Notes under the pieces: generated by a model | The model's database searches: none | Told to the model about the DNA's origin: nothing | The model's input: only the letters and a program-made list of their open reading frames with translations | Virus record (IMG/VR): IMGVR_UViG_3300045999_003534 | Span: 1 to 37,389 of that record | DNA from: a virus | DNA: 37,389 nucleotides | Direction: 5' to 3' (one strand) | Part shown: positions 854 to 9,330 of the stretch, piece after piece | Position numbering within the stretch: the first letter of the stretch is position 1 | How the letters are laid out: every line of letters starts with the position of its first letter | Translations under genes and position numbers: made by a program

Positions 854-932
854 AAAAAAGCCGCTTACTGCTGCATTCGGGTCGCACCCCCCGAGTAGTC
901 TCGGAGGCCTGAACGCATGAGTAAACGGCTTT
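854..932 (-). ncRNA. Structured RNA candidate with a 3' U-run (possible sRNA or elaborate terminator)
   Basis: On the minus strand the arms at 932-920 and 869-857 pair over 13 bp with one G-U. Inside, 917-911 and 878-872 pair over 7 bp. The centre holds two adjacent hairpins: CCGAG-ACTA-CTCGG (904-891) and GGGT-GCG-ACCC (889-879). This gives a three-way junction. The base of the stem runs straight into six U (859-854). On the plus strand the outer helix has a C-A mismatch in place of the G-U, so the minus strand is favoured. It could be a small RNA, a regulatory leader or a terminator behind the 989-1347 genes. I know no matching RNA family. Confidence 0.55.
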
Positions 933-962
933 CATCTGTTGCGTGCGACGACAACGGGGGCA

Positions 963-992
963 ACTCTACTAGATGGGGCTGGGGGCTGTCAA
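963..992 (-). promoter_or_regulatory. Weak sigma70-like promoter candidate upstream of the structured RNA
   Basis: Minus-strand TTGACA (992-987) is followed after 18 bp by TAGAGT (968-963). Transcription would start near 956 and reach the U-run at 854, giving an RNA of about 100 nt. The -35 lies inside a GGGGCT/AGCCCC hairpin at the stop codon of the 989-1180 gene, and the spacer is GC-rich, so the match may be chance. Confidence 0.25.
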
Positions 993-3034: not shown

Positions 3035-3058
3035 TGTGGAAACCTCCAACTAGTTAGA

Positions 3059-3076
3059 CACTGCTCTGTTGCAGTG
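3059..3076. promoter_or_regulatory. Inverted repeat at the leftward transcription start
   Basis: CACTGC (3059-3064) and GCAGTG (3071-3076) are perfect arms around TCTGTT. They sit just downstream of the leftward -10 element (3087-3082). The site could be an operator or a hairpin at the 5' end of the early mRNA. Confidence 0.4.
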
Positions 3077-3081
3077 ATTCT

Positions 3082-3109
3082 ATTCTATACAGAGTGTTAC
3101 CCTTGTCAA
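3082..3109 (-). promoter_or_regulatory. Leftward (early) sigma70 promoter
   Basis: Minus-strand TTGACA (3109-3104, perfect -35) is followed after 16 bp by TAGAAT (3087-3082, five of six to TATAAT). The predicted start near 3075 gives a 5' leader of about 40 nt to the SprT-like gene. It is the best promoter match I see in the window and would drive the leftward block from 3034 across the join. Confidence 0.7.
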
Positions 3110-3153
3110 CACCTAACACTAGATTATTTTCTAGGTGGTTTCCCTAGTGTGGC

Positions 3154-3173
3154 TAGACTATTGCTATAGTCTA
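3154..3173. promoter_or_regulatory. 20-bp palindrome, operator candidate
   Basis: TAGACTAT (3154-3161) and ATAGTCTA (3166-3173) are perfect 8-bp arms around TGCT. Related half-sites occur nearby: AAAGTCTA at about 3191-3198 and TAGACTAA at 3231-3238. The palindrome covers the -35 of the rightward promoter candidate, as expected for a repressor or activator site. Confidence 0.5.
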
Positions 3174-3188
3174 TACTCTCTCTATAGT
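3161..3188 (+). promoter_or_regulatory. Rightward promoter candidate
   Basis: TTGCTA (3161-3166, four of six) is followed after 16 bp by TATAGT (3183-3188, five of six). Its -35 lies within the 3154-3173 palindrome. Transcription would start near 3195 and cross about 400 nt of non-coding leader to the terminator at 3603-3629. Confidence 0.4.
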
Positions 3189-3293
3189 TAAAGTCTATTT
3201 AAGAACTAGATATAGTGTGTGGTTACTAACTAGACTAAAGTAAAGACACATGGGGTTATGCAAGAAACGCATAGACTTTCACCTCCCGCTCAC

Positions 3294-3308
3294 TAGGGAT
3301 TTTCCCTA
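3294..3308. promoter_or_regulatory. Inverted repeat TAGGGA-TTT-TCCCTA
   Basis: The arms are perfect 6-mers. The longer element CACTAGGGA (3291-3299) recurs in the opposite orientation at 3141-3149 beside the leftward promoter. Both lie in the divergent control region, so a protein-binding site is possible. Confidence 0.35.
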
Positions 3309-3334
3309 ATATGGCATAGGGGTTGCTAGGGTCT

Positions 3335-3416
3335 GACAGGGCATAGGCCGACAGGCTGACAGGGTAGAGATACAGACAGACAGCCTAGGGCTGGGTATGG
3401 GTAGACAGACAGACAG
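3335..3416 (+). repeat. GACAG array (eight copies, iteron-like)
   Basis: GACAG occurs at 3335, 3350, 3358, 3375, 3379, 3404, 3408 and 3412, all on the plus strand. Two runs of AGACAGACAGCC are about 30 bp apart. The array lies in non-coding DNA between the divergent promoters and the rightward terminator. It may be an iteron-like binding array or a simple slippage microsatellite. Confidence 0.6.
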
Positions 3417-3503
3417 CCACAGCCAGACACATACAGAGCGGCCCAGGTGAATGGGACTTGAGATTGCTTAGTGTGTGGCCCCCACATTGCACCCCCCATA
3501 AAA

Positions 3504-3546
3504 AAATTCGTGTTTTCTGAACAAGAATTTTTCAAATTCGTGTTTT
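3504..3546 (+). repeat. Two 13-bp direct repeats, AAATTCGTGTTTT
   Basis: The copies lie at 3504-3516 and 3534-3546, 30 bp apart (about three helical turns). AAAAATTC and GAATTTTT nearby form inverted arms. The spacing suits a pair of protein sites on one DNA face, just upstream of the terminator. Confidence 0.5.
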
Positions 3547-3602
3547 TGGTAGACTTGGCTTCGATTGCAGTTGCCACTTCAATCAGGGAATCCGCCCGCT
3601 TT

Positions 3603-3629
3603 GACCAACCCTTGTGTTGGTCTTTTTTT
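3603..3629 (+). terminator. Rho-independent terminator before the first rightward gene
   Basis: GACCAAC (3603-3609) and GTTGGTC (3616-3622) form a perfect 7-bp stem with a 6-nt loop, followed at once by seven T (3623-3629). It points rightward and lies 36 bp before the first rightward start codon. No promoter fits in between, so late transcription must pass through it. Confidence 0.85.
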
Positions 3630-3664
3630 GCCTGTAGGATATGGTTATACGTAGAGGTGTAGAG

Positions 3665-4113: not shown

Positions 4114-4267
4114 CGCCAAGTCAAAGAGGGAGCTTGCTGCTCAGTGGAGGCAGCAGTACTCTGAACACTTCTACAGTGAGCTTATTCGGTGTGCCAGGAA
4201 CAAGACGGTTGCTGGTGACATCATTGCTTGGAACCTTGATGACTTTGACGACAAGAAGGCAAGATGA
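4031..4267 (+). CDS. Hypothetical protein upstream of large terminase; small-terminase candidate by position only
   Basis: The frame ends by overlapping the terminase start as ATGA. Start choice is open: ATG 4031 has AGGA about 6 nt upstream but overlaps the previous gene by 83 bp, while ATG 4088 overlaps by 26 bp but has no well-spaced site. The protein is basic and helical, with KSKRELAAQWRQQYSEHFYS and an acidic end (NLDDFDDKK). Small terminase subunits often precede the large one and are poorly conserved, so that role is possible. I see no helix-turn-helix I would trust. Confidence 0.55.
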   Translation: MEMRWQTELYASRKRLQWEMKRALSCTSAKSKRELAAQWRQQYSEHFYSELIRCARNKTVAGDIIAWNLDDFDDKKAR

Positions 4268-6021
4268 ATTTTGATCTGAAGAAGTTTTACAAGTTCTGCT
4301 CTGAACTCAAGATTGAGACTAAGGAGGAGGGCTTGAAGAAGATGGGTACGTTGCTGGGGACGCAGACGTATGTCATGGAAGAGATTCAGAAGGGGTTGGA
4401 TGAGGATGTTCATTTCTTTGTCATCCTCAAAGGTCGTCAGTTGGGAATTACCACCATCAGTCTCGCGCTCGACCTTTACTGGCAGTTCACGCATCCTGGT
4501 TGGCAAGGTACGTTGGTGGCCGACACGGAAGAGAACAGGGATATGTTCCGCTCGACTCTTGCTATGTACATGGAAGGGTTACCGAAAGAGTACAAGATTC
4601 CACTTGTTGCCCACAACAGAAACCAGATGGTTCTCAAGAACAGGAGCAGGCTGTTCTACCAAATCGCGGGTAACAAGTCTCGACTGGGGCAGGGCAAGGC
4701 TATCACTTATCTTCACGGTACGGAAACGGCTTCCTGGGGCAATGAAGAAGGCTTAGCTTCCCTGATAGCCTCTCTTGCAGAAAAGAATCCTGAGCGTCTG
4801 TATATGTTTGAATCCACGGCTCAGGGCTTCAATATGTTCCACGATATGTACAAGACTGCCAAGCGAGCAAAGACTCAGAGAGCAATCTTCTGCGGATGGT
4901 GGCGTAACGAGTTCTACTCTGTTGCTGGCGACTCCCAGATCTACAAGGTCTACTGGGATGGCAAGCTCAAGTCAGAAGAGAAAGAGTGGGTCAAGGACAT
5001 CAAGAAGCTCTATGGTGTTGACATCAACTCCAGGCAGATGGCATGGTGGCGTTGGAAGATGCATGAGGGCATCAAGGATGAGACTCTGATGTATCAAGAG
5101 TTTCCTCCTACAGAGGATTACGCTTTTGTGATGACAGGCACTAGCTTCTTTTCTCACACGAGATGCACAGAAGCTGCCAAGCAAAGTAAGAAGAGGGACT
5201 GTGAAAACTACCGCTACTCTTTTGGTCAGTTGTTCCAAGACACCGAGGTGCTTAAGTCCACAGAGCGACTGTCCACGCTTAGCGTTTGGGAGCAGCCCAT
5301 CGACTCAGCTTACTATGTTATTGGAGCCGATCCAGCCTACGGAAGCTCAGACTGGGCAGATCGATTTTGCATACAGGTGTTCAGATGCTACGCTGACGGC
5401 CTTGACCAAGTAGCAGAGTTTGCAACCAGTGAACTCAACACGTATCAGTTTGCTTGGGTCATTGCTCACCTTGCTGGCGCTTACAAGAACTCGACTCTGA
5501 ACCTTGAGGTCAACGGCCCTGGTCAAGCAGTCATCAACGAGATACGTAACCTCAAACGCATGGCGGTGAGCATGGGTGGGCCTGTAGGTCATGGACTCAT
5601 GGATGTGCTGGGTTCCATGCAGAACTACATCTGGCGCAGGAACGATACGCTAGGCGGCATCTCCAACAGCATCGGATACCTGACTACTGCCTCTACAAAA
5701 GAGCGGATGCTCAACTACATGAAAGACTACTTTGAGCGGGAGATGATGGGCATCTACAGCATGGACTTGCTGGAAGAGATGAAGGGCATTGTTCGTGACA
5801 ACGGATTTCTGGGCGCTCCTGGGCGCGGCAAGGACGACAGGGTCATTGCAACTGCGTTAGCTTCTGTTGCATTTGCCGAGCAGATCCAGCCTCGCCTGAT
5901 AGCGTCAAAGATAACCAGAGAAGTCAACAAGGCTCAGCAAAATTACACGCCTGAGCAGATTGCTGTTGGCAGGAACGTCAGTGACTACCTAAAGCGGATT
6001 GGGATGTATGGCGCACAGTAA
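4264..6021 (+). CDS. terL: Terminase large subunit (585 aa)
   Basis: This is the DNA-packaging motor that translocates DNA into the procapsid through the portal and cuts it. The ATPase half shows a deviant Walker A (KGRQLGITT, 56-64), a Walker B-like strand ending in E (YLHGTETASW, 149-158) and the coupling motif ESTAQG (183-188). The RNase H-like nuclease half shows acidic residues in order: D356 (VIGADPAYG), E415 (NLEVNGPG) and D524/D525 (GKDDR). Length is normal for the family. The start overlaps the upstream stop (ATGA). The stop lies 14 bp inside the next gene. Confidence 0.95.
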   Translation: MNFDLKKFYKFCSELKIETKEEGLKKMGTLLGTQTYVMEEIQKGLDEDVHFFVILKGRQLGITTISLALDLYWQFTHPGWQGTLVADTEENRDMFRSTLAMYMEGLPKEYKIPLVAHNRNQMVLKNRSRLFYQIAGNKSRLGQGKAITYLHGTETASWGNEEGLASLIASLAEKNPERLYMFESTAQGFNMFHDMYKTAKRAKTQRAIFCGWWRNEFYSVAGDSQIYKVYWDGKLKSEEKEWVKDIKKLYGVDINSRQMAWWRWKMHEGIKDETLMYQEFPPTEDYAFVMTGTSFFSHTRCTEAAKQSKKRDCENYRYSFGQLFQDTEVLKSTERLSTLSVWEQPIDSAYYVIGADPAYGSSDWADRFCIQVFRCYADGLDQVAEFATSELNTYQFAWVIAHLAGAYKNSTLNLEVNGPGQAVINEIRNLKRMAVSMGGPVGHGLMDVLGSMQNYIWRRNDTLGGISNSIGYLTTASTKERMLNYMKDYFEREMMGIYSMDLLEEMKGIVRDNGFLGAPGRGKDDRVIATALASVAFAEQIQPRLIASKITREVNKAQQNYTPEQIAVGRNVSDYLKRIGMYGAQ

Positions 6022-6853
6022 CCTCACAGTCGTAGCTGTCTACGGCCACAACGATGGTTCTAGCGCCATTCCTAGCCTCGTCAAGAGCATGACGCAGCTT
6101 CCAGGCAGTAAGGCTCTTTTGCTAAGCCCTAGCCGCCCTGCAACGCTTCCTTGGTTCATAGAACACAAGCCCATCTTTTCTCTGGACTACTACCAGTACT
6201 CGTGGTTCATGATGTATGCCTTGCATAACTTCATCGACACTGACCATGCACTCATAGTCCAAGATGACGGTTTTGTAATCGACGGAACCAACTTTGATCT
6301 TGACTGGTACAAGTACGACTACATAGGTGCGCCTACCCACTGTGCTTTGACTGGTAGCCAGTACTACTGGAACTGGACTTGGCAGCAGCAAAAAGAGCCT
6401 ATGCACATCATCCAAAATGGTGGCCTGTCTCTACGTAGCAAACGGATGATGCAAGCCCCAGGCAAGTACGGCATCATTCACAGAGCATTCAATGTCCAAC
6501 CTTTCTGCAATGAAGATGTGCAGTTGTCTGGTTTCATGAGAAACGATCTGGAAAAGGTCGGGATGCGTTACGCACCTGATGGCATTGCCAAGTACTTTTC
6601 TATTGAGTACATGGGGCCGGGATATCACGACGACATTGACCTTGCCAAGCTTTTTGGATGTCATGCGCCTACCCGCAAGTTAGTTGGCGCTCACAAGCTT
6701 ATGGTTGATGTGACTCAAAACGCTCCAGAAAATATGCACGGTGAGCAAATGTTCTTGGGCTTCTTGTTGAAAAAGGGGTACGAAATTGTCTACTTCAAAC
6801 GCGAAACCGCTGAGCAAAGTCGAGTTGAAGAAGCAGATGCGCCGGTTCTATGA
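6008..6853 (+). CDS. DUF5672-like putative glycosyltransferase (281 aa)
   Basis: ATG 6008 is chosen; an upstream TTG at 5999 would add three codons. The ribosome site (GGGATG) is weak and the start lies within the end of terL. Residues 5-11 (NLTVVAV) look like the first strand of a Rossmann-type fold. QDDGFV (85-90) and YDYIGAP (103-109) are hallmarks of DUF5672, a family related to glycosyltransferases in which the acidic pair may hold metal and sugar nucleotide. Location between terminase and portal is unusual for a sugar-transfer enzyme. Targets could be capsid or tail protein, phage DNA or host surface glycan. Confidence 0.75.
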   Translation: MAHSNLTVVAVYGHNDGSSAIPSLVKSMTQLPGSKALLLSPSRPATLPWFIEHKPIFSLDYYQYSWFMMYALHNFIDTDHALIVQDDGFVIDGTNFDLDWYKYDYIGAPTHCALTGSQYYWNWTWQQQKEPMHIIQNGGLSLRSKRMMQAPGKYGIIHRAFNVQPFCNEDVQLSGFMRNDLEKVGMRYAPDGIAKYFSIEYMGPGYHDDIDLAKLFGCHAPTRKLVGAHKLMVDVTQNAPENMHGEQMFLGFLLKKGYEIVYFKRETAEQSRVEEADAPVL

Positions 6854-7190
6854 CGACAAGGACAGAGGCATTTCTATCCAGCATTTCTGCGATTTGGCTG
6901 GCATCTCTCACAGGATGTTCCACACAGTCTTTGTCTACGAGGAAGAACCGCTGTCAGAACATATACAACTGCGAGTAAACAAGGCATACGCTCACTGGAA
7001 AGAAGGCGCTGTGCAAGTCATGCGTGACCACACCAGAAAACACTGGGTCGAGTACAGGCGCGTTGCCCAACCTCCCATCATCAGACAGACAAAACTACAG
7101 GTCACTCCTGAAGGCGTGAAAGTCAAGGTCGGACTCGTCAACCGACATGACTATTCCAATCCTAGCTTTGACGAACAACTTAGAGGGTAA
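6786..7190 (+). CDS. Hypothetical packaging-block protein (134 aa), TTG start
   Basis: TTG 6786 is chosen because AAGGGG lies about 7 nt upstream and the conserved-looking segment LSKVELKKQMRRFYDDKDRG begins at residue 9, before the first ATG at 6834. This makes a 68-bp overlap with the previous gene. The segment ISIQHFCDLAGISHRMFHTV could be a helix-turn-helix (residues about 29-48). A DNA-binding packaging role such as small terminase is therefore possible. The C-terminal half is basic and beta-like. Confidence 0.65.
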   Translation: MSTSNAKPLSKVELKKQMRRFYDDKDRGISIQHFCDLAGISHRMFHTVFVYEEEPLSEHIQLRVNKAYAHWKEGAVQVMRDHTRKHWVEYRRVAQPPIIRQTKLQVTPEGVKVKVGLVNRHDYSNPSFDEQLRG

Positions 7191-7192
7191 AA

Positions 7193-7696
7193 ATGGCTGT
7201 CCTGAAAGACTACTACTGCGAGACACACGGAATTTTTGAAGCATGGGAGCCTAAATGCCCCATGAAAAACTGCAAGGGGGAACTCAGTGTTGTGTTCCTC
7301 AAGCCTGTCGGCCTCAAATCAGACAAGACTAAGCGCACGGACAAGACCGTTCAGCAGCTTGCCATTGACTACGACATGACCGACATCAAGACTACCCGTG
7401 AAGGCGAACACCAGACTGGCTACATGAAACGCCATAACAAGCTCACGGACAAACAGTTCGCAGAAGCAGACGCAGCCATGAAAGAACAGCAAAAACAACA
7501 AGGCCCACGCCCTGGAGACCAAGCAATCTGGGGTGGAGGTGGCAACATCAGCATGAAGTCCGTCATGGGCGGTCAGTTCAAGCCCGTAAAAGACGAAACT
7601 GTAAGTATTAACCCTAAGTCGGCAGGAAATTTGACTGGCCCCAGAGCCGGGGTTATCATCAACGACCATGAGAACTTGCAGGTTAGCAAATCATGA
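7193..7696 (+). CDS. Hypothetical protein with N-terminal zinc ribbon-like motif (167 aa)
   Basis: AGAGGG precedes ATG 7193. Residues 7-30 contain YYCETHGIFEAW and KCPMKNCKG, a Cys-His-Cys-Cys arrangement that could bind zinc. The rest is charged and probably flexible, with Gln/Lys-rich and glycine-rich parts (IWGGGGN). Proteins of this kind often sit between terminase and portal in environmental podoviruses; I know no function. Its stop overlaps the portal start as ATGA, which implies coupled translation. Confidence 0.75.
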   Translation: MAVLKDYYCETHGIFEAWEPKCPMKNCKGELSVVFLKPVGLKSDKTKRTDKTVQQLAIDYDMTDIKTTREGEHQTGYMKRHNKLTDKQFAEADAAMKEQQKQQGPRPGDQAIWGGGGNISMKSVMGGQFKPVKDETVSINPKSAGNLTGPRAGVIINDHENLQVSKS

Positions 7697-9330
7697 GAAT
7701 TCCAACTGATCTGATCGAGAGAGAGGAGTTTTACCTCGATCTCATCGAGAAATGCTTGGTTTCGCGTGAAAATCGCAAGACTGACTATGACTCTCTGCGG
7801 AGTTGGTACTTGTTTGGCAATGGCCCAGACGAGTCCCCTGCTCTTTACAACAAAATCTTCCCCCACATTGACCAACTGACCAGCTTTCTCTACTCAGCAG
7901 AGACAACTAGGTTCAGCATCAATGTAGGTGCGTCAGTAAAGAAGAACGAGCATAGCAAGATTCCAGTTCTGACACGCGCCTTGAATGACCGTTGGCTAGA
8001 TAGCAACGCAGATCAGAAGTTCGCGCTGGCTACAACCTGGGCACTTTGCTACAACAGCGGGTTTATCAAGCTGGTGATGAAGGGCAAAAGCGCTCATCCT
8101 CACTATGTTGAGCCTGCCTGCATAGGTGTTTTACGGGAAGATATTCCCGGATTGGATAACCAAGAAGCCTTTATCCACACCTACTACATCACAAAGTCTG
8201 AGCTTTACAGCCAACTTTTCCTGCATAAAGACCGGGAAAGCATTGTCAAGCGGGTGTCTGCGATGCCGCATGAGCGCACAGAAGTTGCCAATGGCATTGA
8301 GCGCATCATCATGAACCAGACAAACCCCACGTTGTACGGCAATGTGAACTTGGATCTGGGCGGCATGAATCGCTACAAGGCAGAAGTTGCTGAAGACACC
8401 ATTGAGATGGTCGAGTTGTATGTTTGGGACGATGACATTCATGACTACCAAGTGGTCACGAAAGCAGAGCCGAACGTCATCATCTATGACCGGCCCAATG
8501 AGACTATGTTCCTCAAGGGTGAACTGCCATTCGTGCAGATTAGCCCCAATCCCCTGTACGACTACTTCTGGGGGATGTCAGAAGTTCAGCGGCTCATATT
8601 CTTGCAGCAGCTTCGCAACAAGCGAATGGCCGAGATTCTTGACTTGCTAAGCAAACAAGTCTCTCCACCAACGGCTCTCATCGGATTTACGGGCATCCTC
8701 GATGAAAAGAACTTTGCTCTCAACCGTGCTGGTGGCCTGCTTGCTACTGATATGCCCAGTGCCAAGGTTGAGAAACTCGCTCCTCAAATTCCTCCTGATT
8801 TGTTCCGCGAAATCGGAGAGATTGACTTGATGTTTGAGGAAGCCAGTGGCATTGTGAGTGTTTTGCAGGGTCGTGGCGAATCAGGCGTGAGGTCGTCAGG
8901 TCATGCTTCTCAGCTTGCCCGTCTTGGCTCCAGCCGTGCCAAGAAACGCGCCCTCGTCATTGAAGACTCTCTAGAGAAACTGGCAACGCTATACCTGCGG
9001 TGTATGCAGGAATACGATGACACGCACTACGTTGATGAAAACGGTGTTCCATTCATCGCAGACCAGTTCACCAAAGATTTTGTGGTCAAGGTAGATGCAC
9101 ACTCCAACAGTCCGATCTTCATGGAAGACCTACGGACAATGGCATTTAGCCTGTTCAACGCACAAGTCATCGACAAAGAATCCTTGCTCGACTTGATTGA
9201 CCCGCCTATGAAGCAAATGCTCAAAGACCGGCTCAAGAAAGAACAAGAAAACAAGCAAGCTCAGCAGGATACGCAACCTCAACCAGAAGGCAAGCCAGAA
9301 GGCAAGCCCCAACTTAAACAGGTGGGATGA
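7693..9330 (+). CDS. Portal protein (545 aa)
   Basis: The portal forms the dodecameric ring at one capsid vertex through which DNA enters and leaves. Size, position after terL and several segments agree with podovirus portals: early YNKIFPHIDQLTSFLYS, the central FVQISPNPLYDYFWGMSEVQ region and the helical RNKRMAEILDLLSKQ. The C-terminus (LKKEQENKQAQQ, then Pro/Gln/Lys repeats KPEGKPEGKP) is a flexible tail. The start overlaps the upstream stop (ATGA). I cannot assign the exact portal subfamily from motifs alone. Confidence 0.88.
   Translation: MRIPTDLIEREEFYLDLIEKCLVSRENRKTDYDSLRSWYLFGNGPDESPALYNKIFPHIDQLTSFLYSAETTRFSINVGASVKKNEHSKIPVLTRALNDRWLDSNADQKFALATTWALCYNSGFIKLVMKGKSAHPHYVEPACIGVLREDIPGLDNQEAFIHTYYITKSELYSQLFLHKDRESIVKRVSAMPHERTEVANGIERIIMNQTNPTLYGNVNLDLGGMNRYKAEVAEDTIEMVELYVWDDDIHDYQVVTKAEPNVIIYDRPNETMFLKGELPFVQISPNPLYDYFWGMSEVQRLIFLQQLRNKRMAEILDLLSKQVSPPTALIGFTGILDEKNFALNRAGGLLATDMPSAKVEKLAPQIPPDLFREIGEIDLMFEEASGIVSVLQGRGESGVRSSGHASQLARLGSSRAKKRALVIEDSLEKLATLYLRCMQEYDDTHYVDENGVPFIADQFTKDFVVKVDAHSNSPIFMEDLRTMAFSLFNAQVIDKESLLDLIDPPMKQMLKDRLKKEQENKQAQQDTQPQPEGKPEGKPQLKQVG

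Follow-up and report, generated by a model that had tools for sequence, protein, structure and literature searches.

The 37,389-base IMG/VR virus record analysed here (hereafter, the window) carries on its minus strand a structured RNA of ~103 nt from predicted start to U-run, at 854–956, which we denote RNA1. A promoter-like site lies ahead of it at 963–992, with TTGACA (992–987), an 18-nt spacer and TAGAGT (968–963). The RNA opens with a 5′ hairpin, P1 (938–955), formed by GUUG (955–952) and CAAC (941–938), which stands outside the long helix. It continues into a terminator arm (856–933) made of P2 (933–920/869–856), P3 (917–911/878–872) and P4 (907–900/895–888), and ends in the U-run of an intrinsic terminator (854–859), six U in the window. 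Enclosed by the outer helix is one arm, in which P3 leads into P4; its 3′ side carries a 7-nt bulge that separates P4 from the 3′ strand of P3. The ~10-nt loop of P1 pairs with this bulge to form a pseudoknot, which in the window is perfect: GUCGCAC (949–943) with GUGCGAC (887–881).

The minimum free energy (MFE) of positions 850–960 on the minus strand is −49.4 kcal/mol, compared with a mean of −33 for shuffled sequences (z = −5.1; 0 of 200 shuffles equally stable) and with −41.8 for the plus strand of the RNA1 stretch. These values bear out the folded minus-strand RNA that a first-pass annotation had proposed for this gap, and the TTGACA/TAGAGT site, the six terminal U and the inner helix of 7 bp are all present as it described, the promoter and the U-run being kept in relatives as well. 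Its outer helix is also present, but comprises 14 bp in our analysis rather than 13. The proposed three-way junction is wrong, because the helix encloses one arm and not two adjacent hairpins, and the junction is absent from both the MFE and the low-energy suboptimal folds. The pseudoknot made by the P1 loop had been overlooked, as had a second structured RNA at 831–620 on the minus strand.

This second RNA, RNA2 (620–831, ends approximate), belongs to a class that is kept in at least 14 relatives, and the first gene after it is a small minus-strand gene, MTWPFPPFPNPLDRPG... (442–588). The early minus-strand module of the window contains SprT-like, GP88, RecT and YqaJ/RecE-type genes. The other long gap of the window, 3050–3640, lies between divergent gene blocks and has a strong promoter-like site on the minus strand at 3109–3082 (11 of 12 positions) and a terminator-like hairpin on the plus strand at 3603–3622. 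A tRNA or tmRNA was considered and rejected, with 0 such genes called in the window by ARAGORN.

RNA1 of the window has no match in Rfam 15 at the gathering score, and an E-value scan of positions 830–1000 returned matches at chance level only (best E 0.34, a microRNA model on the plus strand), in agreement with the earlier statement that no known RNA family could be recognized. No description of RNA1 was found in literature searches with incomplete coverage of subscription papers. A blastn search with the window segment gave no match among 50,697 phage records or in E. coli genomes, and plasmids searched with the RNA1–RNA2 region of a relative (L138) gave none either. Relatives were reached through the terminase of the window (4264–6021), which led to 80 IMG/VR loci, and through a 19-base RNA1 pattern, which added 20 more. 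Alignment of those loci revealed a clear RNA1 family, from which a covariance model, R1, was built; looser patterns added many more contigs, bringing the family to more than 200 phage contigs. Among the 36 terminase contigs whose upstream sequence exceeds 2.5 kb, R1 finds RNA1 in 29 (four of these matches being weak and divergent), mostly 2–5 kb from the terminase and on the opposite strand. The remaining seven have no RNA1 by R1, and six of them, scanned with a topology descriptor, were likewise negative.

A structural parse of 206 loci, containing 158 distinct RNA1 cores, shows compensating changes in the helices and in the pseudoknot. The pseudoknot has at least 7 contiguous Watson–Crick pairs in 149 of the 158 cores, formed by 45 distinct strands; 7–9 nt of the P1 loop take part across the family, and all four pair types are found at pseudoknot positions 3 and 5. 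The 100% standard pairing given by the parse is a product of its own selection rule, and the real test is a control with swapped partners, in which the loop of one member set against the inner strand of another reaches at least 7 pairs in ~4% of cases. The four pairs of P1 form in 153 of 158 distinct cores, and in P2 and P3 together pairing reaches 98.7%, with 12 of the 19 pairs having changed on both sides. When the register is shifted by 1–3 columns, pairing of the whole RNA1 structure falls to 37–51%. The geometry is also constrained: the distance from the end of the bulge to the U-run is 19–21 nt in 124 of 149 members and 17 nt in 22, or about two helical turns. In one alignment (A1) the pseudoknot of several rows is out of register, with 59.5% pairing there, and pseudoknot counts were therefore taken from the structural parse; a second alignment (A2), which contains two sequences with unchecked linkers, was set aside. 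The window itself has P1, the pseudoknot into the 3′ bulge and the terminator arm with its U-run, and scores 95.4 bits with R1, a value that is not independent, as the window sequence is among the training sequences. The covariance model and the search for compensating changes, both suggested in the first-pass annotation, were thus strongly positive. On comparative sequence evidence, a pseudoknotted fold on the minus strand is shown by covariation, and RNA1 is a real, large family without an Rfam match and with a distinctive pseudoknotted terminator; we regard its nature as a structured RNA as almost certain.

The plan of RNA1 persists where its sequence does not. A GenBank phage genome from Manatee Spring (MW202484.1) carries a standard member (77 bits), whereas in L042, L035, L026 and L028 the helices differ and the plan is retained. 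In MW202753.1, whose terminase is 75% identical to that of the window, the sequence in the place of RNA1 is unrelated and the plan is the same: a CGCG/CGCG hairpin whose loop CUGAUAAC pairs with GUUAUCAG, a 23-bp arm and a U-run, followed by RNA2. When contigs were collected by one RNA2 class alone, with no condition set on the upstream sequence, most had an R1 match upstream. Among 51 unique regions upstream of RNA2 in this search, 38 contain a terminator helix together with a pseudoknot of at least 7 bp, compared with none in full shuffles (a donor-only shuffle, at 12.9%, kept part of the donor unshuffled and was not relied on). These include sequence-unrelated RNA1 versions in L293 (GCCUGGCAGC/GCUGCCAGGC), L313 (13 bp), L327 and L333. 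Because phages with unrelated RNA1 sequences share the plan, the fold is what is conserved.

Of 180 unique relatives, 148 have a sigma-70-like promoter (at least 8 of 12 positions) ahead of RNA1, compared with ~11% in shuffles. The end of its −10 box lies mostly 5–6 nt ahead of the RNA1 core, so that transcription would be expected to start at the first bases of the core; at the other end, at least six U are present in 193 of 206 loci. Promoter and U-run therefore bracket the core exactly, and the conserved RNA and the predicted transcript coincide. The placement of these elements strongly supports the predicted start and end points of RNA1 and would fit a discrete transcript, and it is consistent with the earlier proposal of selection on a minus-strand RNA of ~100 nt that has a promoter and a terminator of its own. 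Over the first 500 nt beyond RNA1, promoter-like sites are no commoner than in shuffles, and a single terminator-like site is found among 137 unique regions. A separate promoter for RNA2 was thus looked for and not found in this interval by a sigma-70 scan, which is blind to phage-specific promoters. In some loci another terminator abuts the RNA1 promoter, so upstream transcription should not feed into RNA1.

RNA2 comes in several classes and lies directly past the RNA1 U-run, within tens of nucleotides in most loci. In the class found in the window, 14 of 31 predicted pairs show compensating changes. A second, 'CCGTCAGGGCGCG' class (alignment A3: L138, L276, L289 and others) has them at 12 of 34 predicted pairs, together with a covarying pseudoknot between a hairpin loop and a downstream strand (GAUUGA/UCAAUC, GGUUUA/UAAACC and others). 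The Betaproteobacteria-1 RNA (RF02932) is a further class, located directly after RNA1 in L028 (6978–7094, minus strand) and L154 (5101–5216); in the window, RF02932 has no match in 500–860 up to E = 5, nor in 830–1000. The small gene MTWPFPPFPNPLDRPG follows different RNA2 classes in the window and in L005, and the classes therefore behave like swapped cassettes. A few loci, such as L254, have a gene and no recognized RNA2 right after RNA1.

Several further elements accompany RNA2. Structured or tRNA-like inserts between or within RNA1 and RNA2 contain a T-arm-like GGTTCGAATCC (L160, L283, L318, L319, L114, L191 and L284), and in L114, L160 and L191 ARAGORN did not call these elements as tRNAs. 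In L187, L192, L228 and L273, RNA1 and RNA2 are separated by a further ~100-nt element ('GGGTTAGCGCCA...'), which suggests longer RNA arrays. Within RNA2 of the window there is a perfect DnaA-box-like TTATCCACA at 659–667 on the plus strand, with TTATTCACT at 671–679; an RNA hairpin may explain this equally well. An annotated hypothetical protein, UOF77725.1 (L276 5947–6306, equivalent to MW202484.1 33533–33892), overlaps RNA1 as well as RNA2 and is unlikely to be a real gene.

Genes beside the cassette encode a replication initiator (67 loci), Sak/Erf annealing proteins, an exonuclease and RusA. No protein, including any antiterminator, is common to all RNA1 carriers. tRNA genes are near RNA1 in 2 of 206 loci; in L140, at 6822–8044, six clustered tRNA genes are immediately succeeded by RNA1 on the same strand. 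A strict RNA1 pattern searched against 84,980 species genomes matched two short contigs of metagenome-assembled genomes (MAGs), one from a beta proteobacterium and one from a member of Comamonadaceae, the latter being clearly phage (terminase and replication genes). R1 run on 401 genomes of the family of the Comamonadaceae contig gave 1 match, that contig itself. With these two contigs as the only matches, one of them clearly phage, and 1 of 401 family genomes positive, a host chromosomal RNA was rejected. The hosts are probably, if tentatively, freshwater Burkholderiaceae.

The first-pass annotation had offered a phage sRNA, a regulatory element or an unusual terminator, which are not exclusive; the comparative data favour a pseudoknotted leader-terminator that would release a discrete RNA. 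In the best-supported reading, to which we give about an even chance, this leader-terminator gates RNA2 and the early or replication genes. Host RNA polymerase would start near 956 and make P1 first, then the long arm P2–P3–P4. The P1 loop would pair with the bulge ~20 nt, or two helical turns, before the U-run, with P1 folded alongside the arm. Transcription would mostly stop at 854, freeing a compact RNA of ~103 nt with both ends tied down; if polymerase did not stop there, through failed or overridden termination, that transcript would run on into RNA2 and the following genes, which may thus depend on read-through.

Several observations argue for this gate. The pseudoknot and helices covary, and the plan is the same in sequence-unrelated versions; promoter and U-run bracket the core, with RNA2 then close behind in most loci; and when RNA2 alone is searched for, RNA1 or a fold resembling it lies upstream in most cases. 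The lack of promoter excess and the one terminator-like site among the 137 downstream regions are as expected of a single transcription unit gated at RNA1, as are the terminators abutting the RNA1 promoter in some loci. There is also a precedent for the layout in IsrK, discussed below. Against the gate, the terminator looks uniformly strong, no antiterminator gene is common to the carriers, and loci of the L254 type have a gene after RNA1. No alternative antiterminator pairing or switching structure was noticed, outside any systematic search. It is the absence of a protein common to all carriers, together with no switching structure having been seen, that holds our confidence at an even level.

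Known systems share parts of this arrangement. The late leader of phage lambda (PR′–6S RNA–tR′) is ~194 nt long and Q-dependent. Like RNA1, it has a promoter, a short terminated leader RNA and promoterless genes downstream; unlike it, it has a different fold, and the RNA1 carriers have no Q-like gene in common. In the Pistol ribozyme, the loop of a 5′ hairpin pairs with a downstream strand beside another hairpin, a likeness to RNA1 that ends there: in RNA1 the downstream strand lies 3′ of the inner hairpin, the RNA closes with a terminator, and an Rfam scan of the RNA1 region gave no ribozyme match. GOLLD and ROOL occur in phages near tRNA genes. They resemble RNA1 as structured RNAs without an assigned role, and their structures have been described (PMC12286853), but they are much larger than RNA1, which measures ~100 nt, has its pseudoknot embedded in the terminator and gives no Rfam match to either. 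Betaproteobacteria-1 (RF02932) is a neighbour of RNA1, as one RNA2 class, and RNA1 itself has no Rfam match. The same layout is seen in IsrK from the Gifsy-1 prophage, described (PMC4825925) as a phage sRNA that has a promoter of its own and a terminator ahead of a downstream unit; some transcripts read through this terminator, and the short form base-pairs with the read-through RNA. RNA1 has the corresponding predicted elements, an sRNA terminator followed by a unit without its own promoter, and read-through is documented for IsrK. The structures differ, and IsrK is not known to have a pseudoknotted terminator family.

The main rival to the gate, which we consider a serious one though less likely than not, is that RNA1 acts in trans as an autonomous structural sRNA, its stable, pseudoknotted body binding or decoying a host protein such as polymerase, a nuclease or a defence factor, with RNA2 a co-inherited cassette partner. 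In its favour, RNA1 has its own promoter and a complete terminator, the fold, with both ends tied into the structure, is kept through total sequence change, and RNA1 is spread across phages and adjoins tRNA genes in the 2 of 206 loci. The tight, directional coupling of RNA1 to RNA2, with no other promoter there, fits it less well, and the sequence-unrelated versions speak against a sequence-specific protein site. Base pairing in trans with RNA2 or with the read-through transcript, in the manner of short IsrK, is suggested by the layout shared with IsrK (PMC4825925) and is unlikely: pairing between RNA1 and its own downstream region is no better than pairing with regions swapped in from other loci (mean rank 0.45 and 0.49 among swapped pairs). 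Nearly all of the conserved sequence is paired, and no conserved, exposed, unpaired seed of the antisense-sRNA kind was found, the P1 loop being taken up by a freely varying pseudoknot. Equally unlikely is that RNA1–RNA2 belongs to a replication origin and supplies its primer or an origin transcript; the replication initiator, Sak/Erf annealing proteins and RusA nearby and the DnaA-box-like TTATCCACA would suit it, but such boxes were noticed only in the RNA2 class of the window, and RNA1 ends before any RNA2 sequence. An ordinary strong terminator for upstream genes, to which the GC-rich arm, the U-run and the same-strand genes upstream in the window would conform, is very improbable, as such a terminator requires no promoter positioned for a start at P1 and no covarying 5′ hairpin or pseudoknot, and the fold is held at fixed geometry.

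A group of environmental, freshwater phages thereby gains a large, well-supported family of structured RNA without an Rfam match and with an unusual design, in which the 5′ hairpin forms a pseudoknot with the terminator body. The Betaproteobacteria-1 orphan RNA gains a genomic context, as the second member of a phage RNA cassette in two contigs (L028 and L154), and gene callers put false proteins over such RNAs, as UOF77725.1 probably illustrates. We suggest, tentatively and as a doubtful possibility, that RNA1, a pseudoknotted terminator RNA that retains its fold but not its sequence, and the interchangeable RNA2 together make up a phage cassette of two RNAs not seen before, and that this cassette serves as a novel RNA-only module for control or for acting against the host, close to early or replication genes. 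Since the fold persists when the sequence is replaced entirely, and an RNA2 of swappable class nearly always follows it, the family would allow a direct test of how a pseudoknot tunes intrinsic termination.
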